Positions 5,906 through 20,411 of a DNA stretch of 20,720 nucleotides are shown here, piece by piece. Position numbers and translations under genes: made by a program. The notes below the pieces were generated by a model that was not told where the DNA came from, ran no database searches, and saw nothing but the letters and a program-made list of their open reading frames with translations. The first letter of the stretch is position 1. Each line of letters starts with the position of its first letter. This stretch comes from a virus. The stretch spans positions 1-20,720 of the IMG/VR virus record IMGVR_UViG_3300023210_000280. The stretch is one strand, 5' to 3'.

Positions 5906-6186
5906 TACCTAGATCTTCCTTCTGCAAATCCTCTAAAAGCTTGCTTCATTTCTTCTTTAGCTTCTTTTGGATTATCATTTAATAAAGCCTCTTCCGCTTC
6001 TATTCTAGTAAGTATTTCGAAAGCATCAAATATCGCTAGCTTTTTTGTAGCTGCGGCGTTTTTTAATCTATCAGCTGTTATATCGTCTCCAGAATCAACG
6101 ATAGCCTCTTTAGCTACTTTAATTAATTCTTCAACTGCTTTTTGCCCAGCTAGGATTATACTCTTCTTCGTTTCCTTCGTGTTCAT
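5905..6186 (-). CDS. Small helical protein in the small-terminase position
   Basis: This 93-aa protein is predicted to be almost entirely helical and rich in Ala, Glu and Lys (EELIKVAKEAI, RLKNAAATKKLAIFDAFEIL, NPKEAKEEMKQAF). It lies directly upstream of the large terminase and shares one base with it (TAATG). Its start lies inside the last 56 bases of the preceding 201-aa gene, in another frame. No other ATG is available before residue 80, so the overlap is probably real and the two are probably translationally coupled. Small terminase subunits are commonly short helical proteins in exactly this position that recognise viral DNA and regulate the motor. I see no clear helix-turn-helix, so the small-terminase call is inference. 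It could also be a structural accessory. Confidence 0.6.
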   Translation of the reverse strand: MNTKETKKSIILAGQKAVEELIKVAKEAIVDSGDDITADRLKNAAATKKLAIFDAFEILTRIEAEEALLNDNPKEAKEEMKQAFRGFAEGRSR

Positions 6187-6736
6187 ACTTTATTACAATA
6201 TCATTAGATTTCATACAATAAACTCTTTGATCATCTATTATAAAATCCCATTCGCTACCCGGCGTAAAGCCTATTGTGTCTCCTGGATTGATATTAAGCG
6301 CTTTTAAAGAACTATTACCTATTTTTAGTATACCAATAAGGCTTTGTTCTTTTTGTGATCTTAAAGAGTCATTATTTTTTAAAGGCATTACAAAGCATCT
6401 GTCTCCAAATGATTTCCAATCCCCTGTGTTTTTATACAAATATATTTGGTCTGCTGAACAAAAGTGCAAGTCCTCTTTAAAATGAGATCTACTTCTTTTC
6501 TTATTACCTCGAATATCATAAAAAACTCTAAATACATTATGATGTATTATTATGATGTCTCCTTTTTTTATATTTGTTTTAAAAGCTTTTGGTGTTTCAA
6601 CCACTATAGCTAAATTATTTACAGACTTGAAGTCTTCAATTTTAGTGTTTAGTATTAATGTAACGTCGCCAAGCTTTACTTTGTTATCGTATCTATCGCC
6701 AATAGGTTTGACGATAAAATCGTATAGACTTCTCAT
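6131..6736 (-). CDS. Tandem double GroES-like protein
   Basis: This 201-aa protein reads as two consecutive co-chaperonin-like domains. Domain 1 (about 4-102) opens with FIVKPIGDR, like the GroES start MKPLHDR. It has VTLILN at 25-30 where GroES has its mobile loop (GGIVL), then AIVVETP at 43-49, IKKGDIIII at 56-64 (GroES VKVGDKVLF), and ends in ADQIYLYK. Domain 2 (about 110-185) repeats the plan with GDRCFVMPL, INPGDTIGF at 149-157, SEWDFIIDDQRVYCMKSNDI and VIKYE, but it has no hydrophobic mobile-loop tripeptide. Each half is about GroES length. A tail of about 16 residues (EHEGNEEEYNPSWAKSS) follows. The gene starts directly at the stop of the 75-aa gene (TAAATG). The fold call rests on motif order and needs a profile search; an unrelated beta-barrel is the alternative. 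Confidence 0.65.
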   Translation of the reverse strand: MRSLYDFIVKPIGDRYDNKVKLGDVTLILNTKIEDFKSVNNLAIVVETPKAFKTNIKKGDIIIIHHNVFRVFYDIRGNKKRSRSHFKEDLHFCSADQIYLYKNTGDWKSFGDRCFVMPLKNNDSLRSQKEQSLIGILKIGNSSLKALNINPGDTIGFTPGSEWDFIIDDQRVYCMKSNDIVIKYEHEGNEEEYNPSWAKSS

Positions 6737-7679: not shown

Positions 7680-7961
7680 TTATTTCTTTTTTGTATTTGG
7701 ACCAAAATCAGGGTAAACTGTCATCGAATCCCCAGTTTCTGCATTGTATAGGTTATATCGATTAGGTCTGAATTTTTCCGTACCCTGCACAGGTCGCCTC
7801 TCCTTATAACCTGGATATCTTTTTGCTAGAATAGCTAATTTGTCTAACTGCTTTTTAGCTGCGGTAGGCGTGATCTTTTCTTTTGTTTTCCTAGATATAA
7901 CCGGCTTTGGGTCTTCTTCGTTGTGAAGAGGAGATATAAATCTTTTTATTTTAAACGCCAT
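7680..7961 (-). CDS. MAFKI-type small protein, duplicate copy B (93 aa)
   Basis: This 93-aa basic protein starts MAFKIKRFISPLHNEEDP and shares three blocks with the preceding gene: the MAFKI-x-RFISPL start, EEDP at about 15-18, and YPGYK near residue 49. The first 53 bases of the gene match the start of the preceding gene at 47 positions, so the pair arose by tandem duplication. After the shared N-terminus the two diverge. The C-terminal half (NRYNLYNAETGDSMTVYPDF) looks beta-like and ends in TKKK. There is no membrane segment. Function is unknown. Its position among small probable virion genes, and a common N-terminal tag, suggest that the N-terminus is a docking or targeting element, which is inference. 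Confidence 0.72.
   Translation of the reverse strand: MAFKIKRFISPLHNEEDPKPVISRKTKEKITPTAAKKQLDKLAILAKRYPGYKERRPVQGTEKFRPNRYNLYNAETGDSMTVYPDFGPNTKKK
7909..7961 (-). repeat. Duplicated 5' gene segment, copy B
   Basis: These 53 bases, covering the first codons of the 93-aa gene, match 8374-8426 at 47 of 53 positions with no gap, counted by eye. Both copies end exactly at the start codon. The identity is much higher than elsewhere in the two genes, so the N-terminal tag is either recently duplicated or under strong constraint. Confidence 0.85.
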
Positions 7962-7979
7962 AATTCTAATATTTTTTCA

Positions 7980-8426
7980 CTATTTTCTTTTAATAATATC
8001 TCCGGTGCTGTTATAACTATGCTTCATATTCTGGTAATTAAGCTTCACCATACCTTTTGACTTTATATTTGAAGCTAAATTTTCTCTAGTAATTTCCATA
8101 ACTGGAAGTTTACCAGGTTTTCTAACATATACGTTACCGCTTGTTGAATTACTACCAACAATTTTGAAACCTTTACGACCAATTCTTTGTCCTTTTGTTG
8201 GAAATTTAAGGCTTAAATCTTTTTCCTTATGCTCTGATTTTATTTTATTCTGAGCCTTAGTGTTAATAGTATTAAGCGCTTGAGCTTCAACACTGTCGCC
8301 TCTCATTTTATCAGCATCGCCAAGAGGCTTATAACCTGGGTAATGCTTTTTCTTTTCAGTTTTAGGGTTTCTTGGATCTTCTTCTATGCGAAGAGGAGAT
8401 ATAAATCTTTGTATTTTAAATGCCAT
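7980..8426 (-). CDS. MAFKI-type small protein, duplicate copy A (148 aa)
   Basis: This 148-aa, highly basic protein begins MAFKIQRFISPLRIEEDP and has YPGYKPLG at about 29-36, both shared with the 93-aa gene that follows. The middle (SEHKEKDLSLKFPTKGQRIG) is charged. The C-terminal part (GFKIVGSNSTSGNVYVRKPG, then MVKLNYQNMKHSYN) looks like a small beta-rich domain. It has no cysteine and no membrane segment. The gene starts two bases after the stop of the HExxH gene, which also begins MAFKI. I do not recognise a family. A minor virion or head-tail accessory is plausible from the neighbourhood. Confidence 0.72.
   Translation of the reverse strand: MAFKIQRFISPLRIEEDPRNPKTEKKKHYPGYKPLGDADKMRGDSVEAQALNTINTKAQNKIKSEHKEKDLSLKFPTKGQRIGRKGFKIVGSNSTSGNVYVRKPGKLPVMEITRENLASNIKSKGMVKLNYQNMKHSYNSTGDIIKRK
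8374..8426 (-). repeat. Duplicated 5' gene segment, copy A
   Basis: Partner of 7909-7961, with 47 of 53 bases identical. It encodes the MAFKI-x-RFISPL ... EEDP N-terminus of the 148-aa gene. Confidence 0.85.
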
Positions 8427-8428
8427 AG

Positions 8429-8737
8429 TTACTTTGCTTTTTTATATGCTTCTTTTTCCCAGGGTAAGTTTTTTGCCCCTTCTTTCATTTGTTTGCGTGA
8501 ATATTTTTTACCTTTCCAGTAAACGTTTTGATCGTCGTAGTCTAAGTCGCCACGCTTCATTTGATCTATGTGTACCATTTCGTGGTTTATTACGCTAGTC
8601 AGTTTAGCTGGTGATAAATTATTATTTATAATAATAGTACCATTGTTATTGGCTTTACCTAAAACGCCGTCCTCCATATCTACACTGTAAATAGGAGTAT
8701 TGTCTATGTTATAAAATGGTGTAATTTTAAAAGCCAT
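8429..8737 (-). CDS. HExxH zinc-metallopeptidase-like protein with MAFKI N-terminus
   Basis: This 102-aa protein carries HEMVH at 52-56, preceded by the helix PAKLTSVIN, which is the classic zincin active-site helix with two His ligands and a catalytic Glu. LPWEKEAYKKA at 91-101 would supply the third ligand, a Glu; a PWExEA block downstream of HExxH recurs in small phage and bacterial zincins. A beta strand, TIIINNNL, just before the helix fits the edge strand of that fold. The protein is short for a peptidase, so it is either a minimal domain or a zinc-binding structural relative. The first five residues equal those of the next two genes. The start lies at the edge of the structured non-coding element. 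Peptidase activity is inferred from the motif alone. Confidence 0.75.
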   Translation of the reverse strand: MAFKITPFYNIDNTPIYSVDMEDGVLGKANNNGTIIINNNLSPAKLTSVINHEMVHIDQMKRGDLDYDDQNVYWKGKKYSRKQMKEGAKNLPWEKEAYKKAK

Positions 8738-8754
8738 ATTTTTTTAAAAATAAA

Positions 8755-8917
8755 TGTACAGGTCGGGTCTACAGTGGAGGCTGGAAAGAAAAAGGTAAAT
8801 GTCTTCACGGCAAGTTGAGGGGATCATCCCGCGTGTAGCCGAGTGGCACCAAGATCTCTGCCAGTCATGTAAAGTCAAGTCCTAGAAAAATCTAGCTTCC
8901 ACCTCGCCGCCTGTACA
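8755..8917 (+). ncRNA. Candidate structured RNA, possibly with a pseudoknot
   Basis: The 189-base gap 8738-8926 has no credible reading frame but holds a 163-base element at about 51% GC (83 of 163) in AT-rich flanks. Bases 8755-8762 pair perfectly with 8910-8917. Next, CGG 8764-8766 can pair with CCG 8907-8909. A 12-bp helix joins 8774-8785 and 8891-8902; it includes two G-U pairs on the plus strand that would be A-C mismatches on the minus strand, so the plus strand is favoured. Inside are the hairpins GGGA/TCCC (8820-8830) and TGGCA/TGCCA (8844-8863). CTACA 8769-8773 can pair with TGTAG 8834-8838, crossing the 12-bp helix as a pseudoknot. ATTTTTATTTT (8918-8928) follows and could act as a terminator. 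I match it to no known class. The alternatives are a minus-strand processing structure or a mobile DNA hairpin. Confidence 0.58.
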
Positions 8918-8926
8918 ATTTTTATT

Positions 8927-9157
8927 TTACTTTCTACAATGTTTAGACATCCAAGAACCTTTCATAGCTATTGGAGATTTATCTAATTCAGAACCATAAC
9001 CTTTATTAAGGTTATTTATAGGACCTCCAGCTGCAACTTTTACAGCTTGCTTTTCCTCGTATTTACCTTCTTTTCTAATTTTAGCACTGCTAGACTTAGA
9101 GTCCGCTATAGCGTTTCTAGAATAATCTTGCGCTATTTTTTTTCTTGATTTGTTCAT
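8927..9157 (-). CDS. Small basic protein of unknown function (76 aa)
   Basis: This 76-aa protein begins MNKSRKKIAQDYSRNAIADS and is basic and probably helical through residue 40, followed by a Gly/Pro-containing linker (VAAGGPINNLNKGYG) and the ending KSPIAMKGSWMSKHCRK. The SPIAMKG block resembles GPLAMKD in the EF-hand protein encoded just upstream; short Pro-Leu/Ile-x-Met-Lys blocks recur in this group of small genes. A single cysteine lies near the C-terminus. The ATG follows an AT-rich leader (TAAATAATT). The stop at 8927 sits ten bases past the structured RNA element. No family is recognised; a minor virion protein is possible. Confidence 0.68.
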   Translation of the reverse strand: MNKSRKKIAQDYSRNAIADSKSSSAKIRKEGKYEEKQAVKVAAGGPINNLNKGYGSELDKSPIAMKGSWMSKHCRK

Positions 9158-10289: not shown

Positions 10290-10730
10290 TTATCTGTTTT
10301 TATCTTTATTAACTATTTCTATTGCTTTTTTTAAAACTTTATCCGTGTAAGATCTACCTGCCATTATGCTGTTTCTTCTGCTCATAGGTATATCCTCTTC
10401 ACCTAGCATCATTCGGTACATTCTACTTATTAGTTGTTTACATTTAAAAGAAACTTTGTATATATGATACTTTTGAGTTGTTCGATTTCTTTTTCTCCAT
10501 ACAACTATCCATCCTTCTTTTAATAATCTATTCCACCGTCTGTTATCCCAGCTGTAAGAATAAGTACCTTCCATAAAGTCGTGTTTTGTAAAAAACTCCA
10601 TGCAGTCAAAATGAATTAATAATTCCAAGTCTGCATCATTTAGGTTGTTATTTTTACAAGCCCACTTTCTTATAATTCTATAATGTTTTAATAAGCCTAG
10701 TTTTTTAATGTCGCCAGCGCTTATTCTCAT
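10290..10730 (-). CDS. Probable winged-helix DNA-binding protein (146 aa)
   Basis: This 146-aa basic protein has the layout of a MarR-like winged helix: a helix with LNDADLELLIHFDCMEFF at 30-47, then a helix with NRRWNRLLKEGWIVVW at 63-78, where the rLxxGWI pattern matches the end of a recognition helix. A basic hairpin wing (RKRNRTTQKYHIYKVS, 79-94) follows, and then a helix that begins FKCKQLISRMYRMM. The C-terminal 35 residues are charged and helical. The start overlaps the GroES stop by four bases (ATGA), so the two are translationally coupled. It may regulate late transcription or bind DNA in the particle. The fold is inferred from the pattern only; I know similar proteins in marine phage structural clusters without a proven role. 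Confidence 0.68.
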   Translation of the reverse strand: MRISAGDIKKLGLLKHYRIIRKWACKNNNLNDADLELLIHFDCMEFFTKHDFMEGTYSYSWDNRRWNRLLKEGWIVVWRKRNRTTQKYHIYKVSFKCKQLISRMYRMMLGEEDIPMSRRNSIMAGRSYTDKVLKKAIEIVNKDKNR

Positions 10731-10993
10731 AAAACTACAACTATATCTTGCATTTTTATAACTTGGTACGGATCACCTTCTATTTCTATAGTGTGACCAG
10801 CGTGTCTATCATAATATATAAGATCATTCTTTTTCATGCCTGCGCTAACAGCATCTTCCCCAGGTGATACTATTGATGCTTTCACATACCTAATATCTTC
10901 TCTTTGTTTCTCAGCAAGAAGTAAACCACCTTTAGTAGCAGCAACACCTTCTTTTTGTTTCTTTATTATTAAGTTTCTACCTATCGCCTTCAT
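10727..10993 (-). CDS. groES: Phage GroES-type co-chaperonin
   Basis: This 88-aa protein has the GroES plan. MKAIGRNLIIKK is the first strand. KGGLLLAEK at 21-29 replaces the mobile-loop GGIVL that contacts GroEL. VKASIVSPGED and MKKNDLIYYDRHAG (53-66) match the conserved VGDKVLF region, and IEGDPYQVIKMQDIVVVL (71-88) is the usual final strand. It is slightly shorter than bacterial GroES (about 95), with a reduced roof-hairpin region, giving a cap that is perhaps more open; T4 gp31 shows that phage caps can reshape the folding chamber. The start lies 17 bases inside the GroEL reading frame and the stop overlaps the winged-helix gene by four bases, so the three genes are translationally linked. 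The identification is firm. Confidence 0.9.
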   Translation of the reverse strand: MKAIGRNLIIKKQKEGVAATKGGLLLAEKQREDIRYVKASIVSPGEDAVSAGMKKNDLIYYDRHAGHTIEIEGDPYQVIKMQDIVVVL

Positions 10994-12530
10994 TTGCTCT
11001 TAAATTATTAATTACACAATCAGTTGATAATATTGTAGTAGCTACAGAGGCAGCATTTCTTAATGCACTTTTGGTCACCATTAACGGATCAATTATACCG
11101 TGTTTAACCATATCTACAGGTTCTCCTGTTATTGCATTCAAACCAACACCTTTATCTTGTGGCTCAGATGCTGTAATACCTGCATTTTCTAATATTGTAA
11201 AGTAAGGAGCTTTTATGGCTCTTAATAAAACTTCTTCGCCTAATCCTTCGCTTTTAATATATGTTGAAGCATTTAATAATGCAACTCCACCTCCTGGTAC
11301 AATACCTTCTTTAACAGCTGCTTTTGTTGCACAGATAGCATCTTCAACTCTATCAGTTTTTTCTTTTAACTCTACTTCAGAGTTTGCACCAACTTTAACC
11401 ACTGCGATTTTAGCAGTTAACATTGATAATCTTTTTTCAAGCTTTATAACTTCCCAGCTTTTCAGCGTGTTATTTGTAAGCTTTTCTTTTATGCTACGTA
11501 TTACATCCTTTATCTTTTCGGATGCCTCAGAGACCGTTATAACAGTGTCCTCGTGTGAGGTAACACTTTTTAAACAAGATCCTAAATAATCTATGTCAAT
11601 TGAATCAAGGTCATCTCCTAGATCTTCATTAACTATTGTAGCTCCAGTTAGTAAAGAAAGATCCTCAAGTACTTCTCGCTTGCTAATACCGTAAGTAGGA
11701 GCATTGATTACATTTACTTTTAGATTACCTTTCTTTTTATTGGTAGCTAGAGTTGATAAAACACCTTGTTCTAAGTCGCCTATGATAAGCAAAGGTTTGT
11801 TGTTTTTTATTACGTACTCCAGCACTTTTTGTATATCTCTTATAGTATTAACTGGTGATTCCATGATTAATACTAATGGATTTTCTAATTCAGCTGTTTT
11901 TGTTTGTTCGTTTGTAATGAAGTGAGAATTTGTTAAACCTTTATCGTAAGGTACACCTTCAATTAATTCAGAAACAGTTTTACCGTCACCGGCAGTCTCC
12001 ATCATTACAATACCTGTATTATCCACAGATCTAAACGCATCAGCTATAATAGAACCTAATTCATTGTCATTGTTGACGGATATAGAAGCTATGTTATCTA
12101 ACATGTCTCCTTTTACATCAACCGCAAGTTCCTCTAAATACTTAATAACTTTTGTAACTGCAGAATTTATACCGTCTTTTATTTCTCTGGCATTTTTCTT
12201 TTCTGAAACAGCGTAAGCTTCTTTTAATATAGCGTGAGCTAAAACAGTCGCGGTAGTTGTACCGTCACCTGCTTCTTGAACAGTCTTTCTAGCAGCTTCT
12301 TTTAATAACGTAGATCCCATATTTTCAACTGGATCAAACAATATTATAGAATCAGCTACAGTAACACCATCTTTTGTTATAACAGGTTTTCCTGTACCGT
12401 CCTCTAGCATTACGCATTTACCGCCAGCTCCTAATGTAGAGCTGACAGCATTTGCTAGTTTTTCTATTCCTTTAAATACTTGATTTCTAGCTTCGTCACC
12501 AAAGTTCAAGTTTTTGACAATTCCGTTCAT
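10977..12530 (-). CDS. groEL: Phage GroEL-type chaperonin (Hsp60)
   Basis: This 517-aa protein is a complete group I chaperonin with equatorial, intermediate and apical regions in order. ATP-site motifs are intact: DGVTVA at 54-59 (the Asp equivalent to E. coli D52), GDGTTTATVLA at 88-98 (D87), RVEDA with D397 (D398), and GGG at 413-415. By-eye alignment shows changes in the apical substrate and GroES-binding groove: L199 for Y199, H203 for Y203, Q234 for L234, and A262/T263 for V263/V264; F204 and L237 are kept. The GGM-repeat tail is absent; the protein ends LRANEGDR. groES follows with a 17-base overlap. It should form the folding cage for phage proteins, probably capsid or fibres. A less hydrophobic groove suggests a narrowed clientele, which is inference. 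Confidence 0.95.
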   Translation of the reverse strand: MNGIVKNLNFGDEARNQVFKGIEKLANAVSSTLGAGGKCVMLEDGTGKPVITKDGVTVADSIILFDPVENMGSTLLKEAARKTVQEAGDGTTTATVLAHAILKEAYAVSEKKNAREIKDGINSAVTKVIKYLEELAVDVKGDMLDNIASISVNNDNELGSIIADAFRSVDNTGIVMMETAGDGKTVSELIEGVPYDKGLTNSHFITNEQTKTAELENPLVLIMESPVNTIRDIQKVLEYVIKNNKPLLIIGDLEQGVLSTLATNKKKGNLKVNVINAPTYGISKREVLEDLSLLTGATIVNEDLGDDLDSIDIDYLGSCLKSVTSHEDTVITVSEASEKIKDVIRSIKEKLTNNTLKSWEVIKLEKRLSMLTAKIAVVKVGANSEVELKEKTDRVEDAICATKAAVKEGIVPGGGVALLNASTYIKSEGLGEEVLLRAIKAPYFTILENAGITASEPQDKGVGLNAITGEPVDMVKHGIIDPLMVTKSALRNAASVATTILSTDCVINNLRANEGDR

Positions 12531-13002: not shown

Positions 13003-16000
13003 TTATTTTTCTAATTTTTGTATTCTTGCTTCTAATTCAGCAATTTTTGCTATAAGTAAATCTATATAAGCTACAGACTTAAATCCTTGACTGTCTTCTC
13101 TTACAAACTCAGGATTAGTTTTTTCTAACTCTTGAGCTATAACACCGTATCTTTTTTGTTCTTTTTCAGTTTTGAAATTAAACGTTTTCCAACTTACCTC
13201 TATATTATTATTACATACTTCTTCAATATTTTCTTTTAATCTTTCATCTGAAGAATTTATAAAGTTTGTAGCTGTTACAGTACTTGTAAAAGTAGCTGCT
13301 TGATTTGAAGCTAAAGATAACGCTTTTGAATTATTCGAATATAAATGTGTAGTTTCAGGAGTGTTAAAACCTTCTGTTGTAAAAACTTTATAACCTCCAA
13401 CTGATAAGTTTAAAGCTTCGTTTCTATAACCACAATTTAAAATAACATTATAATTACCGTCACTTGAACTGGATAGTTTTATAGACGGATGTGTTTCACC
13501 TGAAACGTGTAGTCTTTCTTGAGGACTAGCAATACCAATCCCAACGTCTCCACCGTTAAAGTACGAAGCAGAATTAGATCTTATTCTAGCGCCAATAACA
13601 TTAGAACTATTTCTTAGATAAATTTCTGAACTATTATTATTAAAGTATATTCCACTGTCTGCTGTACTAGCATTGTTTCTTACTTGAACAGCCCATTGAT
13701 CAGCTGAAGCGTTTGTAGCTACAAAAAACCTATCACTTTGAACAACACCGCTTACATGTAATTTTTGGCTAGGACTAGTCGTGCCAATACCGACGTTACC
13801 TGCGTTTGTAATACGCATTCTTTCTGCGTTATTAGTGTGGAAAATTGTATTGTAATAAGCGCTGTTTTTTATATTTAAATTATTGCTACTTTCATATATC
13901 AAACCATAACTACCTACTTTAAAGCCAGTGGTAGCTTTTGCATACCCTACTACCTCTAGTTTCTCACTAGGTGCTGTTGTTCCAATACCGACGTTACCTG
14001 AATCTTTAATAACCATTTTTGTGTTAACAGAGTCTCCACTATTGGTTTGAAAAACCATATCTCCCTTTAAAGCAGAAGGGCTGGCTTGTGTAATGACAGA
14101 CTTTATTATACCTACTGAATTAGTTGACGAATTAGCAGATGTGCCTACTTGAAATCCTAACTCTAAAGCCTCACCTACTGTTTCACTTGTAGTTCTTAAA
14201 GATATTCTAGGCGAACCACCTCCTAATACCTCTAGCTCGTTGGTAGGGCTAGTCGTCCCGATTCCTACGTTGCCTCCATTAAAGTATGAATTACCATAAC
14301 CCCTTACAACAACATTTGTAGTTCCTGCTTCATTGTATAAATTAATTAAACCTCCATTTGAATCATCATATCCTATTAATGCTTTTTGGCTTCCATCTGA
14401 TTTAAGTATGCTAATTTTAGCATCACCCCCTGAACCTGGTTTTAATTCTAGTAATTCACTAGGACTAGTCGTCCCGATTCCTACGTTACCTTGTCTTTTG
14501 ATACGTATTCTTTCCGCACCTCCGGCTGTAAATTTTATATCAGTCAAGCCTTGAGAGGCCTTAATATCAAAATCATTTGTTCCGTAATGATTTAAGTCAG
14601 TTAAAACATAAGCACTACCTCTAGTTATTACATTTCCATTTACATCTAATTTAAAGCCGCTTTGAGGACTATCTGTTCCAATACCTACGTTTCTATCGCC
14701 TCTAACATATAAAGCACTACCTGTATTATTTGCTACATTTAATAAAGCTGATCCTGCGTTATCTCCTGCATCTGAGCGTACTTTTAAAACATCCCCTGAA
14801 GACTGCGCCGCATTGTTATGATGTATATAAGCTACATTATCAGAAGCATCAGCGCTGTCAACGTGTAATTTGAAAGTAGGACTCGTCGTCCCGATACCGA
14901 CATCACCTGTAAAAATACCATTACCTGTTACTGATACACCTCCATTTGAAGTTTCAAACTTTTTCGAAGTATTGTAGTATAAAGAAACAGAATCCCCTTG
15001 GTTTGCTACCACCATATTAGAGCTATCTGTACCTTCTAATCTTAAACTTGTGCTTCTAATCCGTAAGTTACCTGTTCCTGATTCTTTTATATAGCTATTA
15101 CTGCCATCGTGGGATATTTGTAAATCATTATTATCACCAAAATAAGCAGCAACACCATCTGTGTGTCTAGTATCTTTATAAAACCTTGTTTGCTCAGCAC
15201 TTCCATCAACTACCATATATGAAGTTGTAGCACCTGTGCCATCGTCTGTTTTAAATATTATATCCCTATCATCACCTGTGTTTATTATATTTAAGTGCCC
15301 CTCGCCTTCGTTACTTAAAAAAGTATTTGAACCGTCATGCCATATTTGAAAATCGTTACCTGTTCCGTATCTATCTTTTACGTTATCACTATGGCTTGTG
15401 TTACCAGTCATTGTTCCACCAGCTAACGGTAAGTAAGGACCACCTATTACAGTAGAAGCATTAGCCCAAGCAATACCGCCAGAGCCAGTGCTTGTTAATA
15501 CCTGGTTAGTTAAACCCCTGCCGTTATTTATGTCATAAATTAATTTAGCCCATAATTGATTAAATCTGTTAGTCGATGTTCCAAGGTTATTTACTTCATT
15601 TCCCTCTGGGGCTATTGTTCCATTTACTTGTAATTTATATCCAGGACTAGTCGTACCGATACCGACGTTGCCGTTATTAGCTATCCTAAATTTTTCACTT
15701 CCAGATGTTTGAAAAGTAAATAATCCACTAGAACCTTGAGCAGCAAATGTTATTCTTTGCTCTGAGCCTTTTCTTTCTATGTAATCATTGGTGCCACCTA
15801 TATATATTCTCTCCCAGTTATCTACACTATCAAAAAAAGCTACACCTACATTCCCAGTTTTGCTTTTAACTGTTAAAGGGTAAGAAGGGCTAGTCGTTCC
15901 TATACCGACGTTACCGGTTTGGTCTTTTAGTGTCATCCAAGTTGCTTGGTTATTTCCACTGTCCCTACCGCCAAAAACTGTATCACCGGCATTTGTAATT

Positions 16001-16626
16001 TTAATTCTTTCTGTATTTGTATCATTTAATTTAATATGAGTACCGTCAGAAACAAATCTAAATTGATTACCATTATTACCTTTTAACCCAAATCTTACTT
16101 CAGAGTCAGATGATTGTACATTTATTTGTCTAACGCCACCTCCGCTAACTAAAATATTTCCATCAGCAACATTTAATTTAGCGCTAGGACTAGTCGTCCC
16201 GATTCCGACGTTACCTGGGTTTGAAAAATAAGCGTGTGTAGTGCTTCCGTCTAAAGTTAAATATGGAGTTGTACCACCAGAACCATTATCACTTTCAAGT
16301 ATTAAATCTGCATCAACTTTATCTTGTTTTATTACAAAACTTCCATTTAAGTTTCTTAAATAAGTATTTGAACCGTCGTGGTACGCTTGAAAATCATTAC
16401 CAGTACCTATATATAAATCAACATTATCATTTAGCTTCAGATCACCAATCATTGTCCCACCAGCAAGTGGCAAGTACGGTCCTCCTGGCAAGTTACTTCC
16501 ACTAACCCAGTTAATACCTGTAGCTGTAGAGCTCAACACTTGGCCGGATGTTCCAGCATCTCCACTTGTATCTAAAAACTTATCAAGTAATTGAAACTCT
16601 GTATTTATTTTTTTTATTTCTGCCAT
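13003..16626 (-). CDS. Repeat tail fibre with C-terminal S74 chaperone domain
   Basis: This 1207-aa adhesin has a short N-terminal region (MAEIKKINTEFQLLDKFLDT), two PYLPLAGGTMxG blocks followed by DLYIG/HDGSN-type repeats, and ten copies of (N/D)VGIGTxSPxxxL. Each copy ends in a short beta stretch and is separated from the next by variable inserts, many ending in AERIRI or similar. The last 83 residues form a peptidase S74 (intramolecular chaperone) domain: SSDERLKENI starts at about 1125, where the Ser-Lys pair drives self-cleavage in known members. KRYGVIAQELEK and a coiled coil, LLIAKIAELEARIQKLEK, follow. Such domains trimerise the fibre and are then released. The start is two bases after the other fibre gene. 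The role is receptor binding at the cell surface, and the call is strong. Confidence 0.9.
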   Translation of the reverse strand: MAEIKKINTEFQLLDKFLDTSGDAGTSGQVLSSTATGINWVSGSNLPGGPYLPLAGGTMIGDLKLNDNVDLYIGTGNDFQAYHDGSNTYLRNLNGSFVIKQDKVDADLILESDNGSGGTTPYLTLDGSTTHAYFSNPGNVGIGTTSPSAKLNVADGNILVSGGGVRQINVQSSDSEVRFGLKGNNGNQFRFVSDGTHIKLNDTNTERIKITNAGDTVFGGRDSGNNQATWMTLKDQTGNVGIGTTSPSYPLTVKSKTGNVGVAFFDSVDNWERIYIGGTNDYIERKGSEQRITFAAQGSSGLFTFQTSGSEKFRIANNGNVGIGTTSPGYKLQVNGTIAPEGNEVNNLGTSTNRFNQLWAKLIYDINNGRGLTNQVLTSTGSGGIAWANASTVIGGPYLPLAGGTMTGNTSHSDNVKDRYGTGNDFQIWHDGSNTFLSNEGEGHLNIINTGDDRDIIFKTDDGTGATTSYMVVDGSAEQTRFYKDTRHTDGVAAYFGDNNDLQISHDGSNSYIKESGTGNLRIRSTSLRLEGTDSSNMVVANQGDSVSLYYNTSKKFETSNGGVSVTGNGIFTGDVGIGTTSPTFKLHVDSADASDNVAYIHHNNAAQSSGDVLKVRSDAGDNAGSALLNVANNTGSALYVRGDRNVGIGTDSPQSGFKLDVNGNVITRGSAYVLTDLNHYGTNDFDIKASQGLTDIKFTAGGAERIRIKRQGNVGIGTTSPSELLELKPGSGGDAKISILKSDGSQKALIGYDDSNGGLINLYNEAGTTNVVVRGYGNSYFNGGNVGIGTTSPTNELEVLGGGSPRISLRTTSETVGEALELGFQVGTSANSSTNSVGIIKSVITQASPSALKGDMVFQTNSGDSVNTKMVIKDSGNVGIGTTAPSEKLEVVGYAKATTGFKVGSYGLIYESSNNLNIKNSAYYNTIFHTNNAERMRITNAGNVGIGTTSPSQKLHVSGVVQSDRFFVATNASADQWAVQVRNNASTADSGIYFNNNSSEIYLRNSSNVIGARIRSNSASYFNGGDVGIGIASPQERLHVSGETHPSIKLSSSSDGNYNVILNCGYRNEALNLSVGGYKVFTTEGFNTPETTHLYSNNSKALSLASNQAATFTSTVTATNFINSSDERLKENIEEVCNNNIEVSWKTFNFKTEKEQKRYGVIAQELEKTNPEFVREDSQGFKSVAYIDLLIAKIAELEARIQKLEK

Positions 16627-19600
16627 GTTTATGCGTAAGTTGAATTAATTGAATGACCAGTTGCTTCTATTGTTACTCTAGGTGTGTAATATTTTGTACC
16701 AGAAGTTGATTTAAAAGTAAACGTAATGGTTGATCCATCAGCTGACGCTTCTACGTCAAAATTATTAGTTCCTTCGTTTATGACTTTTTTAGTTCTCCAC
16801 GTACCCATGTCGTTATAGCAACTGTAAACTATTTTTTGATATCCTCCTGTGTCGCCGAAGCATGTAAACGTAAACCCTGTTGAGTTACCGTTACTGCTAG
16901 ATGTTAATCCAGCTACAGCTTGTCCGGTTGTAGTTAAGTTTGAATATGGTTTTGAATATGTAATAACACCCCCAGCTCTTACCGCCCCGTTGGCATCTAA
17001 TTTATAAACAGGACTTGTAGTTCCAATACCTACGTTGCCGGTGTTAGCAATAACTAAATTATTACTAACGTTATTTGTACCAAAAGACAATTGGCCGCCG
17101 TCTCTATTATATATAAAAGCATTTGTTCCTGATTTATTAATTAGTAAGGCATCTCCTGTTCCTGTTCCATTATCCCTATCGGAAAGATATATTTGGCCTG
17201 AAGAACCTGCATTACCTACAACGTGAAGATTACCGCCAGGACTAGTCGTCCCTATACCAAGTCTACCAAAGGCGTCAAGACGCATTTTTTCACTACCTCT
17301 ATTTTGAAATATAATATTTCTAGCTGTATCTCCACTATTACCGTCAGCGTCTGCATTAAGAATTAAATTTACTAGTGAACCAAAGTATTTATTATTATCT
17401 GTGTCTGAAATTAATATATTTCCATCTACAGATAACTTTTGACTAGGTGCTGTTGTCCCAATCCCGACGTAACCCGCGTTGGTTATAGAAAAAATATCTC
17501 CACTATTAGTTGTGACTCCAAAAGCATAATAAGAATTAGATGTCCCTGCGTTAGAAACCCATAAATCTGGATTATTAGTTGGTGTCCAGGTATTACTGTT
17601 GGATACTGGATTTACTACAGACAACATTCCTATAGGGCTAGTCGTACCGATACCTACGCTACCGGTTGAGGTAATACGCATGCGTTCTGCGCTATTTGTC
17701 TTGAAGCCTAAAGCGTCTGTGTTTGGTGTAGATATATATTTTGCCCCTACTCCATTACCCTTTAATGTTAAACCTGCGAATCTGTCTAACTCAGCATAAT
17801 TTACATTTCCAGAATCTCTTGAAGTTATAGTGCCGTCTCTAACATCTAACTTCTGACTAGGACTAGTCGTCCCGATTCCGACGTTACCGCCTAACGGGTT
17901 TAATGAAAGTACTCCTAAATTATTTGCGGATGAGCCTGGATGCCCTGACTGAATCCAAGATTTTCTATCGTTTGCTGTTTGAGAAACTCCTAAAGCTAAT
18001 CCATTAGACGAATTAGATTCTTCAATTAATAACCCAGCGTTTCTATTCCAATTTGTTGAAGCGGTTCCCGCTGTAGCAGTCATTGAATTTATAGCTACAC
18101 TAGTGTATTTATTTTGCTGCTTGTTTACAGGGATACTATTTCCTATACCTATGTTTCCGGTATTTGTAATACGCATTTTTTCGGTATTGTTGGTTTCAAA
18201 AACCATATTACCGTTCTCCCTGTTAATAAAGTTAACCTGAGATACTCCCATTGATATTTGAAATCCATCATTAGATGTTGTACCTGTAGCTGCTTGCGTT
18301 AATTGTAAATACGCATTACCACTGTCAGCGTGTACATGTAGTTTTCTGCTAGGACTAGTAGTTCCGATACCTACGTTACCGTTAGAGTTAATAACCATTT
18401 CTGCTGTTGGTGTTGCCGAACCGTTTTCTCTTACACCAAATTGTAAGCCAAAACCATAGTCACCATCGTTAGCATTTGCTTTAGCGGCCCTTATATATGG
18501 AGCTCCACCCAATATAAAGCCTAAGCTACTGTAAACGCCAGCTAAAGATATTACCGCTCCTTGTCCAGCGTTTAAACCAGTGCTAATGTCAACCAATCTT
18601 AAAGTTGAATTAGTGTCATTAATAACTCCAGTTCCTTGCGTTTTTCTTATGTCAAGTTTAGTGCTAGGGCTAGTAGTACCGATTCCTACGTTAGTTCCGT
18701 TATCATATAAAGTACCAATACCTAAAGTATCTGTATCTATCCAACGCGCAGAATAATTTGCAGTACCAGAACCATCAACTGGTCCTGAGCCTATAGGTAT
18801 TTCTATTACGTTACCATTAGTATCTACAGCTAATCTTTGAGTTGCAGTGCCTGTAAAAGATCCAGATCCGTAATCATTAAAGGACACACGTCCATCATGA
18901 TTAATAATCATCCTTTGCTGCATAGAGTTAGCTCCTGATTTGTCGGTGTAAAAAGCTAAAAATCCATCTGCTGTATTACCTGCCGTATCAGTACCTCCCT
19001 TGATAGCAGCTCTAGTTGTTTTAGTTGTCCCTGAGTAGTTGTCTGAAAAAGTTAACGTGCTTCCTTTACCAGCAACGTCCGCAGATGAGGTATTATATAT
19101 GTCAAATGCTGAGTTAGAAATAGATAAATCTCCTGATGTATGTGTGTCTGTATACGCTATTTGTAGCTTGGTTTGTGGACTAGTAGTTCCAATACCCACG
19201 TTACCTGCATTAAGCCAGCTATTTCCTTGAGCGCTTAATCTGACATCTTCGTTATTTACAGAGTCAAGTATAGATATCATACCCGAACCTACAACATCTA
19301 AAGTATGTTTAATTTTAGCAGAGCCATTTGAGTTTGAAAAATGAGCTATATCTACACTTGTAGTCGCGCTTGCAGCCACTTCTAACCTAGCGCTAGGACT
19401 AGTTGTTCCAATACCAACGTTACCAGATATTATAGACATTTTAGGCGTTCCAGACTCCATAAAATGTGTTCTAGCTGTAGGTGTGTTAAAAAGCAACCCT
19501 CCGCCTGAAATAACTCCACCGGTACCGTCCATGTAAATATTAGCAGTATGAGATGAGCTTTTTAAATCCAACCTAATAGCGTGAACGGTGTTTTCAAATT

Positions 19601-20380
19601 TAACATAACCCTTATAGACCTGTGTACCCACCACATGGAGAGTAGATGTAGGACTAGTAGTCCCTATACCGACGTTACCAGCATTTGTTCCGGATGTCTT
19701 TATTCTTAAGTATTCATTCGAGCCGCCTGCGTCTCTAAAAGCGTGATCACTGCTTGCTCTATAAAATATACTATTATTAGGAGATCTTAAGTTTAAGTAG
19801 CTACCGTTTGCAGCAATATCTAAATGATTATCCCCTGTTATACTTCCACCTCCTGTTATATTTACCGAGTATGATGAACCTTGCTGGCGGATATCTCCAT
19901 TTACATGAAGTTTAGTACTAGGACTAGCCGTCCCGATACCGACGTTGTTTCCTGATCCAAATATTAAATCAGCATCATTTTGCCTTATCTTAAAGTTACC
20001 ACTAGCGTCAGACCCAAAACCTCCACCTGTTCCTGCTGTGTAGTAGTATTTTTCTGCACTAATAAGAGTATTCCCATCTACGTGTAGCTTTTGTGTAGGA
20101 TTAGTAGTGCCAATTCCGACGTTACCATTGTAGTTTACACGGATTCTTTCAGAAGCGTTAGTAACCATAGTTATATAACCAGCCGAGCCACTTGAGTCTA
20201 ATATGAAATTCTGGCTACCTGCTGTTTTTACAGAGGTGAAGTTTCCAGCTGACTGAATGTTGAAGTATTTGCCAGACACATCACTGTGCATTCTAAACTC
20301 AGTTTCTGCGGCTGCGTTTGTACCAATCTCCAGTTCTTTAGTTGGACTACTATTTCCAATACCTACCTTGCCGGCGAAAT
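13520..20380 (-). repeat. Dispersed VGIGTTSP-coding repeat family, 24 copies
   Basis: About 30-base units coding for VGIGTTSP-like motifs recur every 150-500 bases across both fibre genes: ten in the 1207-aa gene (near 13530, 13780, 13980, 14250, 14470, 14675, 14885, 15655, 15900, 16195) and fourteen in the 1260-aa gene (near 17015, 17245, 17455, 17645, 17870, 18140, 18365, 18675, 19185, 19405, 19660, 19930, 20110, 20355). They are conserved as DNA as well as protein: 16184-16215 and 17857-17888, in different genes, are identical over 32 bases. The variable inserts between units differ. Shared anchors like these allow recombination that swaps or deletes receptor-binding modules. Confidence 0.9.
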
Positions 20381-20411
20381 ATGCGTTATTTAAAAATGGT
20401 ATATTTGCCAT
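16629..20411 (-). CDS. Repeat tail fibre or adhesin without S74 domain
   Basis: This 1260-aa protein starts MANIPFLNNAYFAGKVGIGN and carries fourteen VGIGTxSP-type units with varied inserts (a typical insert ends AERMRIT or EKMRI before the next unit). The final 100 residues form a different domain: TGFTFTCFGDTGGYQKIVYS, then TWRTKKVINEGTNNFDVEAS, then YYTPRVTIEATGHSINSTYA. It looks like a compact beta domain I have seen at the ends of other phage fibres. Unlike its neighbour it lacks the S74 chaperone and any terminal coiled coil, so it must trimerise in another way or depend on a partner. The gene is next to the 1207-aa fibre, two bases apart, and shares its repeats. It probably forms part of the same adhesion device, either the shaft or a second receptor specificity. 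Confidence 0.85.
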   Translation of the reverse strand: MANIPFLNNAYFAGKVGIGNSSPTKELEIGTNAAAETEFRMHSDVSGKYFNIQSAGNFTSVKTAGSQNFILDSSGSAGYITMVTNASERIRVNYNGNVGIGTTNPTQKLHVDGNTLISAEKYYYTAGTGGGFGSDASGNFKIRQNDADLIFGSGNNVGIGTASPSTKLHVNGDIRQQGSSYSVNITGGGSITGDNHLDIAANGSYLNLRSPNNSIFYRASSDHAFRDAGGSNEYLRIKTSGTNAGNVGIGTTSPTSTLHVVGTQVYKGYVKFENTVHAIRLDLKSSSHTANIYMDGTGGVISGGGLLFNTPTARTHFMESGTPKMSIISGNVGIGTTSPSARLEVAASATTSVDIAHFSNSNGSAKIKHTLDVVGSGMISILDSVNNEDVRLSAQGNSWLNAGNVGIGTTSPQTKLQIAYTDTHTSGDLSISNSAFDIYNTSSADVAGKGSTLTFSDNYSGTTKTTRAAIKGGTDTAGNTADGFLAFYTDKSGANSMQQRMIINHDGRVSFNDYGSGSFTGTATQRLAVDTNGNVIEIPIGSGPVDGSGTANYSARWIDTDTLGIGTLYDNGTNVGIGTTSPSTKLDIRKTQGTGVINDTNSTLRLVDISTGLNAGQGAVISLAGVYSSLGFILGGAPYIRAAKANANDGDYGFGLQFGVRENGSATPTAEMVINSNGNVGIGTTSPSRKLHVHADSGNAYLQLTQAATGTTSNDGFQISMGVSQVNFINRENGNMVFETNNTEKMRITNTGNIGIGNSIPVNKQQNKYTSVAINSMTATAGTASTNWNRNAGLLIEESNSSNGLALGVSQTANDRKSWIQSGHPGSSANNLGVLSLNPLGGNVGIGTTSPSQKLDVRDGTITSRDSGNVNYAELDRFAGLTLKGNGVGAKYISTPNTDALGFKTNSAERMRITSTGSVGIGTTSPIGMLSVVNPVSNSNTWTPTNNPDLWVSNAGTSNSYYAFGVTTNSGDIFSITNAGYVGIGTTAPSQKLSVDGNILISDTDNNKYFGSLVNLILNADADGNSGDTARNIIFQNRGSEKMRLDAFGRLGIGTTSPGGNLHVVGNAGSSGQIYLSDRDNGTGTGDALLINKSGTNAFIYNRDGGQLSFGTNNVSNNLVIANTGNVGIGTTSPVYKLDANGAVRAGGVITYSKPYSNLTTTGQAVAGLTSSSNGNSTGFTFTCFGDTGGYQKIVYSCYNDMGTWRTKKVINEGTNNFDVEASADGSTITFTFKSTSGTKYYTPRVTIEATGHSINSTYA

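Follow-up and report, generated by a model that had tools for sequence, protein, structure and literature searches.

The sole long gap in the structural-gene cluster of a marine flavobacterial phage holds an element of about 163 bases that is real, conserved, folded and non-coding. It occupies positions 8755-8917 of an IMG/VR virus record of 20,720 bases (hereafter the window, meaning the whole stretch of DNA analysed), and it is defined by its fold z-scores, six distinct homologous versions and covariation that none of 500 shuffles reached. Tentatively, we read it as a structured RNA of accessory character, embedded in an intrinsic terminator at a place between late gene units where sequences are exchanged.

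To our knowledge, structured phage RNAs outside tRNA islands have rarely been described, and our literature search found neither a structured RNA reported for marine flavobacterial phages nor a description of this one. At a fixed operon junction, we report a covarying RNA in place of a terminator and, in other relatives, an unrelated second RNA built in the same way; with two such RNAs at one site, the exchange of modular RNA control (or RNA cargo) among phages can be put to the test in a concrete case.

Genomic position and composition

The long open reading frames of the window all lie on the minus strand, as the initial annotation, made from the sequence alone, had it; the borders which that annotation drew for the element, 8755 and 8917, are exact. 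On the gene strand, the upstream neighbour is gene N (8927-9157, minus strand), which encodes 76 amino acids, and the downstream neighbour is gene M (8429-8737, minus strand), which encodes a metallopeptidase-like protein (HEMVH motif; Pfam DUF6782 below the cut-off; PHROG metallo-protease). The 37-kb relative G001 has a single gap longer than 90 nt, and this gap is the element. The terminase of the window is closest to that of a podovirus-like metagenome genome (64%) and next to those of Flavobacterium elemo phages, and Cellulophaga phages were also matched.

The GC content of the element, estimated at about 51% in the initial annotation, was measured at 50.9%, which exceeds that of every other 163-base stretch sampled across the 20.7 kb (maximum 50.3%; mean 35.4%). 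When folded as a single RNA, the + strand reaches -58.8 kcal/mol (z -4.3, a value equalled by 0 of 200 shuffles) and the - strand -53.5 kcal/mol (z -2.9, 3 of 200 shuffles).

Several other features of the window were recorded. The phage encodes its own GroEL (10977-12530) and GroES (10727-10993), which together span 10727-12530, and a second GroES-like protein (6131-6736; PHROG co-chaperonin). Two long fibre-like proteins with many GNVGIGTTSP repeats are encoded at 13003-20411, and the C-terminal region of the one at 13003-16626 resembles, by eye only, an intramolecular chaperone (DERLKENIEEV...). Three adjacent genes at 7680-8737 share a MAFKI motif at the N-terminus, extended to MAFKI[KQ]RFISPL in two of them, and in relatives (L146, L154) other genes with the same start occupy this spot; to judge from the sequences, the shared start looks like a common leader or virion-targeting tag on variable cargo. 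PADLOC returned no match among six neighbouring proteins.

Homologs and covariation

IMG/VR was searched for homologs by means of the terminase, two neighbouring proteins and five DNA patterns, and versions of the element were collected by a covariance model and repeated nhmmer searches. In contigs of the same flavobacterial podovirus group, this gave six distinct versions with 67-98% identity: those of the window, L004, L146 (identical in L150 and L153), L147, L013 (with L012 and L151) and L154 (identical in L030). As these six versions represent approximately three effective lineages, all covariation counts given below rest on that number.

Over the six versions, 93.9% of the helix cells hold standard pairs and 10 of the 49 pairs are changed on both sides, and neither value was reached in any of 500 shuffles. 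Shifting the pairing partner by one to three columns reduced pairing to 31-40%, and the RNAalifold consensus energy lies 5.8 (+) and 6.4 (-) standard deviations below that of column-shuffled alignments. The most telling case for a conserved fold is helix P2 of L154, in which most of both arms has been replaced while pairing is still held at most positions. The compensatory changes expected of the helices named in the initial annotation were thus found, and the lack of covariation that would have spoken against a structured RNA was not observed.

No match to the window was obtained with Rfam 15 at the gathering score, which places the element outside known classes, as had been suspected; a permissive Rfam search yielded only a chance match to ToxI (E 5) outside the element, and ARAGORN predicted no tRNA or tmRNA genes in the window. 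Among INPHARED phages and in PLSDB there was no homolog, BLASTN giving chance matches or none. In 84,980 bacterial and archaeal genomes (GTDB), four pattern matches were obtained, approximately the number estimated for chance, none of them with a model match. Three DNA patterns run against IMG/VR returned the same set of contigs plus chance matches, while a looser pattern returned 90 stretches, of which the new ones were chance. A covariance-model search of the collected relatives found no further homolog; the weak matches left over were short AT-rich stretches or came from the element's own opposite strand. In phage MW202828, an annotation gap of 445 nt was considered as a candidate RNA and rejected, by eye, as coding sequence.

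The same alignment bears on the idea that the element is a short coding gene misread as RNA, specifically a 28-amino-acid open reading frame on the + strand (ATGTCTTCACGG...TAG), the frame of which is open across the core in several versions. However, the start codon is absent in L146, L147, L013 and L154, single-base insertions and deletions break the frames, most differences affect the first or second codon position with no third-position bias, and nearly all frames contain stop codons in all versions. We regard this explanation as hardly credible and, on the stops and indels, rejected a protein-coding gene.

Architecture of the folded element

The ends of the element are joined by a closing helix, P1, of 11 pairs (5' arm 8755-8766, 3' arm 8907-8917), in which 98.5% of the cells are paired over the six versions. 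The 8-bp closing helix proposed in the initial annotation (8755-8762/8910-8917) is perfect, and P1 extends beyond a one-base bulge by three further pairs (8764-8766/8907-8909). A 7/4 internal loop joins P1 to the 12-bp helix P2 (8774-8785/8891-8902), also proposed initially, which is present in the window with two G-U pairs on the + strand and covaries over the six versions, four of its pairs being changed on both sides and its sequence being mostly replaced in L154. Between P2 and the next strong helix lie a large internal loop, A-rich on the + strand, and a weak helix, P3 (8793-8796/8880-8883), with 83% of cells paired and no double change.

Helix P4 (8803-8808/8869-8874) forms the base of a three-way junction and also covaries, with two double-changed pairs; in the L004 version it is extended and repaired. 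On it sit the two hairpins that had been proposed, at 8809-8840 and 8841-8866. The first, P5 (8809-8811/8838-8840 and 8816-8821/8828-8833, with the loop GATCAT at 8822-8827), has 100% and 97% of the cells of its two segments paired and one double change, and it ranks among the most conserved parts of the element. The second, P6 (8841-8848/8859-8866, with GATC at 8853-8856 in the loop), has 97% of cells paired and two double-changed pairs. Much of the conserved sequence (GTTG, CGTGTAGCCGA, ACCAA and TCTCT) lies in these two hairpins.

The two hairpin loops may also pair with each other (8822-8825 with 8853-8856), as GATC:GATC in the window type and as GAC:GTC in the L146 type. Such pairs occupy 87.5% of the cells, with one double change and one pair lost, and the same bases can alternatively join a helix between the 5' strand of P5 and the 3' strand of P6 (L154); the complementarity is therefore only suggestive of a loop-loop contact. 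The initial annotation had additionally proposed a pseudoknot (8769-8773/8834-8838). Although this can form in the window, it does not covary: its columns (36-39/101-104) show no double change, one pair is broken in L146 and L013, and the last pair competes with P5.

Both ends of the element are flanked by AT-rich sequence. On the gene strand, an A-tract precedes P1, and directly 3' of P1 lies a T-tract followed by an A-tract (8738-8754, minus strand) that ends at the start codon of gene M. The bases immediately 3' of P1 on this strand, TTTATTTTT, include T at 8 of 9 positions in five of the six versions and at 7 of 9 in L147, and the flank is kept in L146, where the element stands before another gene. 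On the + strand, the T-rich run noted initially after the element is likewise present (8918-8926; T at 6-8 of 9 positions).

A variable junction upstream of gene M

To place the element in context, we examined how the gap on the upstream side of gene M (8429-8737) varies over 93 distinct contexts among the collected relatives. This gap is no longer than 30 nt in 69 contexts and 31-120 nt in 14, all 14 of which contain a simple hairpin, mostly with a T-run on the gene strand. The 163-nt element fills the gap in four contexts and a different element, of 107 nt, in three; the longer gaps of the remaining three are probably coding sequence missed by the script. Simple intrinsic terminators on the gene strand lie directly upstream of gene M in L021, L017, L269, L275, L277, L063, L052 and L294. 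Judged by sequence, terminators at this site likely mark a transcription-unit boundary in the phage group.

The 107-nt element (L248:3360-3466; also L247, L249, L264 and L266) is unrelated to the 163-nt element and occupies the same junction. It is closed by a 9-bp inverted repeat (AGCGGTCCT/AGGACCGCT) and flanked by AAATAAAAGT and TTTTATTTAAAAAAAA, with the start codon right after TTTTATTTAAAAAAAA. It folds far better on the gene strand (z -4.75 versus -2.2), and it has no Rfam match. A blind scan of all collected loci (approximately 3.1 Mb) for GC-rich inverted repeats of 8 bp that enclose 70-260 nt and have AT-rich sequence on both sides returned only the 163-nt and 107-nt families.

Among close relatives, the 163-nt element is present or absent as a whole unit. 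Empty alleles were found both at the junction of genes M and N (L011/L245, with a 9-nt gap) and at that of genes M and D (L070/L251, with a 7-nt gap), the latter being filled in L147. In L146 (12384-12608, corresponding to 8738-8926 of the window), the element is bordered by an N-like gene on one side and gene D on the other, the N-like genes about it are shuffled, and gene M carries a simple terminator of its own. Because the element comes and goes as a unit and stands at two different junctions, co-oriented with the genes at both, we consider it an exchangeable accessory unit. It has no fixed regulated gene, since the gene downstream of it on the - strand is M in most contigs and N-like in L146.

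Exchange of this kind raises the question of whether the element could be a MITE-like mobile DNA hairpin, moving between AT-rich spacers without any RNA function. Its terminal inverted repeats (TGTACAGG/CCTGTACA), its AT-rich flanks, the clean empty sites and its presence at two junctions agree with this. However, a repeat that merely drifts should not show inner helices with compensatory changes or loops that stay invariant, only one copy is present per record, and the element was not found outside this phage group. Moreover, there is no fixed target-site duplication, and the empty sites fit recombination between ATTTTT repeats. We thus consider a mobile hairpin improbable and, given a single copy per record and no fixed duplication, do not assign the element to the MITEs or other mobile elements bounded by inverted repeats, although inverted repeats are present.

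The relatives lacking the element also bear on its supposed function. A role in packaging or late expression had been entertained in the initial annotation; an essential role of this sort is unlikely, because close relatives have no element at this locus; most relatives are incomplete contigs, so that absence holds for this locus and a copy elsewhere is possible. In particular, some of them encode a very similar terminase or neighbour proteins, so that packaging appears not to need the element. This weighs against an assembly RNA in which the loops of P5 and P6 of neighbouring copies pair to form a ring or dimer for virion assembly or packaging. In favour of such an RNA are the paired ends, the three-way junction and the complementary hairpin loops, one loop pair of which has changed on both sides, and the overall design recalls the phi29-type prohead RNA (PMC5340915). 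However, no Rfam family is matched, and the loop evidence amounts to one event that could reflect the alternative pairing of the 5' strand of P5 with the 3' strand of P6, so that we consider this role very improbable.

Strand of the RNA

The initial annotation had assigned the RNA to the plus strand, on the grounds that two G-U pairs in P2 would be A-C mismatches on the other strand. These two pairs are peculiar to the window/L004 version, and over all six versions the helix positions hold 8 G-T versus 9 A-C cells, so that wobble pairs do not decide the strand. Nor do the folding statistics differ greatly: consensus folding is alike on both strands (z -5.8 on + and -6.4 on -), structure conservation is slightly better on the - strand (SCI 0.81 versus 0.71), and single-sequence z-scores averaged over the versions are similar.

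Unpaired bases are 41% A on the + strand and 36% U on the - strand, and A-rich unpaired positions are typical of structured RNAs. The purine share on the + strand is 52-56% in all versions, as compared to 42% for the window, making the element the most purine-rich 163-base stretch sampled on that strand and setting it against the genome trend. These A-rich loops and the purine richness would point to the + strand, and they support an independent small RNA gene, expressed from a promoter in the left flank, starting near 8755, ending at the T-run 8918-8926 and acting in trans on host or phage messages. Such a gene is further supported by the left flank (TTTTTAAAAATAAA), which is kept more strictly than the right flank even at another junction, and by the wobble changes in P1, which are G-T on the + strand. 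However, the balance of wobble cells and the slightly better consensus fold on the - strand weigh against it, and no sigma-70 or Bacteroidetes-type promoter consensus beyond chance was detected at the site, so that the promoter of its own proposed for the element gained no support. In addition, relatives carry gene-strand terminators at the junction, and the gene strand is also the one on which the comparable 107-nt element folds. A + strand small RNA consequently seems to us possible but doubtful. As far as such sequence features can tell, the - strand is favoured by the position of the element, by the terminators found in relatives and by the 107-nt element, and we consider the gene strand the slightly more probable source of the RNA.

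A proposed terminator with an embedded folded domain

On either strand, P1 with its A/T tracts looks, from its sequence, like an intrinsic terminator having a folded domain as its loop. On the - strand a stem is directly adjoined by a U-rich tract (T at 8 of 9 positions in five of the six versions), and, taken with the site and the alternatives found there, this U-tract favours a terminator that encloses a folded domain over any other single reading. This reading is supported by the covariation, the site survey, the second element, the T-tract, the empty alleles and the co-orientation with the genes. Against it, a loop of 140 nt is unusual for a terminator, the versions represent only about three lineages, and the element has no fixed regulated gene. 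Owing to the length of its loop, the element is not called by a simple terminator scan. Against the gene strand in particular, a terminator made of P1 and its A/T tracts would function nearly as well on the + strand, and the A-rich unpaired positions and purine richness lie there.

If the element acts as an embedded terminator, its RNA would have the sense of the gene (-) strand and would form the 3' terminus of a transcript covering the upstream late genes. The internal domain would fold and P1 would then close, and closed P1 with the following U-tract (UUUAUUUUU) would either stop RNA polymerase or cap the 3' end, so that less transcription continues into gene M and the terminase genes. Since the conservation of the inner domain exceeds what a terminator needs, this domain probably binds something or acts in trans: it might bind a protein, another copy through the P5 and P6 loops, or a ligand, and so tune termination, or the released 163-nt RNA might itself be active in trans. 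There is precedent for a terminator with an embedded sensing domain in the HMP-PP riboswitch (PMC6478431).

A broader reading, which we put forward as speculative and rather unlikely, is that a fixed site in the late operon of these flavobacterial phages, upstream of gene M, serves as a slot at which RNA devices (plain terminators, the 107-nt element and the 163-nt element) are exchanged for one another. The cores of the two elements might sense a signal, self-assemble to control late transcription or act in trans. The 107-nt element strengthens the case for such a slot; the two RNAs are mutually unrelated and outside known families, yet they are built alike, each with a closing helix, A/T tracts and a folded core.

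Comparison with known systems

The closest counterparts of the element at the junction itself are the intrinsic terminators of relatives (L021, L146, L275), which likewise lie directly upstream of gene M and combine a GC-containing stem with a T-tract and then an A-tract reaching the start codon. In contrast to the element, with its three-way junction and conserved loops, these are single short hairpins. If the RNA is made from the - strand, it would, by analogy, also resemble bacterial small RNAs derived from 3' UTRs, as an RNA from the end of an mRNA finished by a terminator. The inner domain is, however, far more structured than a typical base-pairing small RNA.

In the HMP-PP (thiS motif) riboswitch, too, a stem with a U-tract behind it encloses a conserved folded domain, and the loops are conserved beyond the needs of termination. 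However, the aptamer of this riboswitch is tiny and lies before bacterial thiamin genes (PMC6478431), whereas the element is 163 nt long and lies in phages before small late genes; with a negative Rfam search and phage late genes as neighbours, we do not count it among riboswitches of this type.

Among phage RNAs, the phi29-type prohead RNA shares with the element paired 5' and 3' ends, a three-way junction and two hairpins, the loops of which may pair in the element as well. It belongs to a different phage group, and the element neither matches the Rfam pRNA profile nor appears essential for packaging, being absent at the locus in close relatives, the records of which are incomplete, so that we do not assign it to this class. 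GOLLD and ROOL (PMC12286853) are also structured phage RNAs with possible kissing loops, but GOLLD members are frequently longer than 800 nt and frequently lie close to tRNA islands (PMC12286853), while the element has 163 nt, no tRNA in its window and no Rfam match. We thus view the element as a new family within a general kind, the structured phage RNAs, that is unusual in its place and build.
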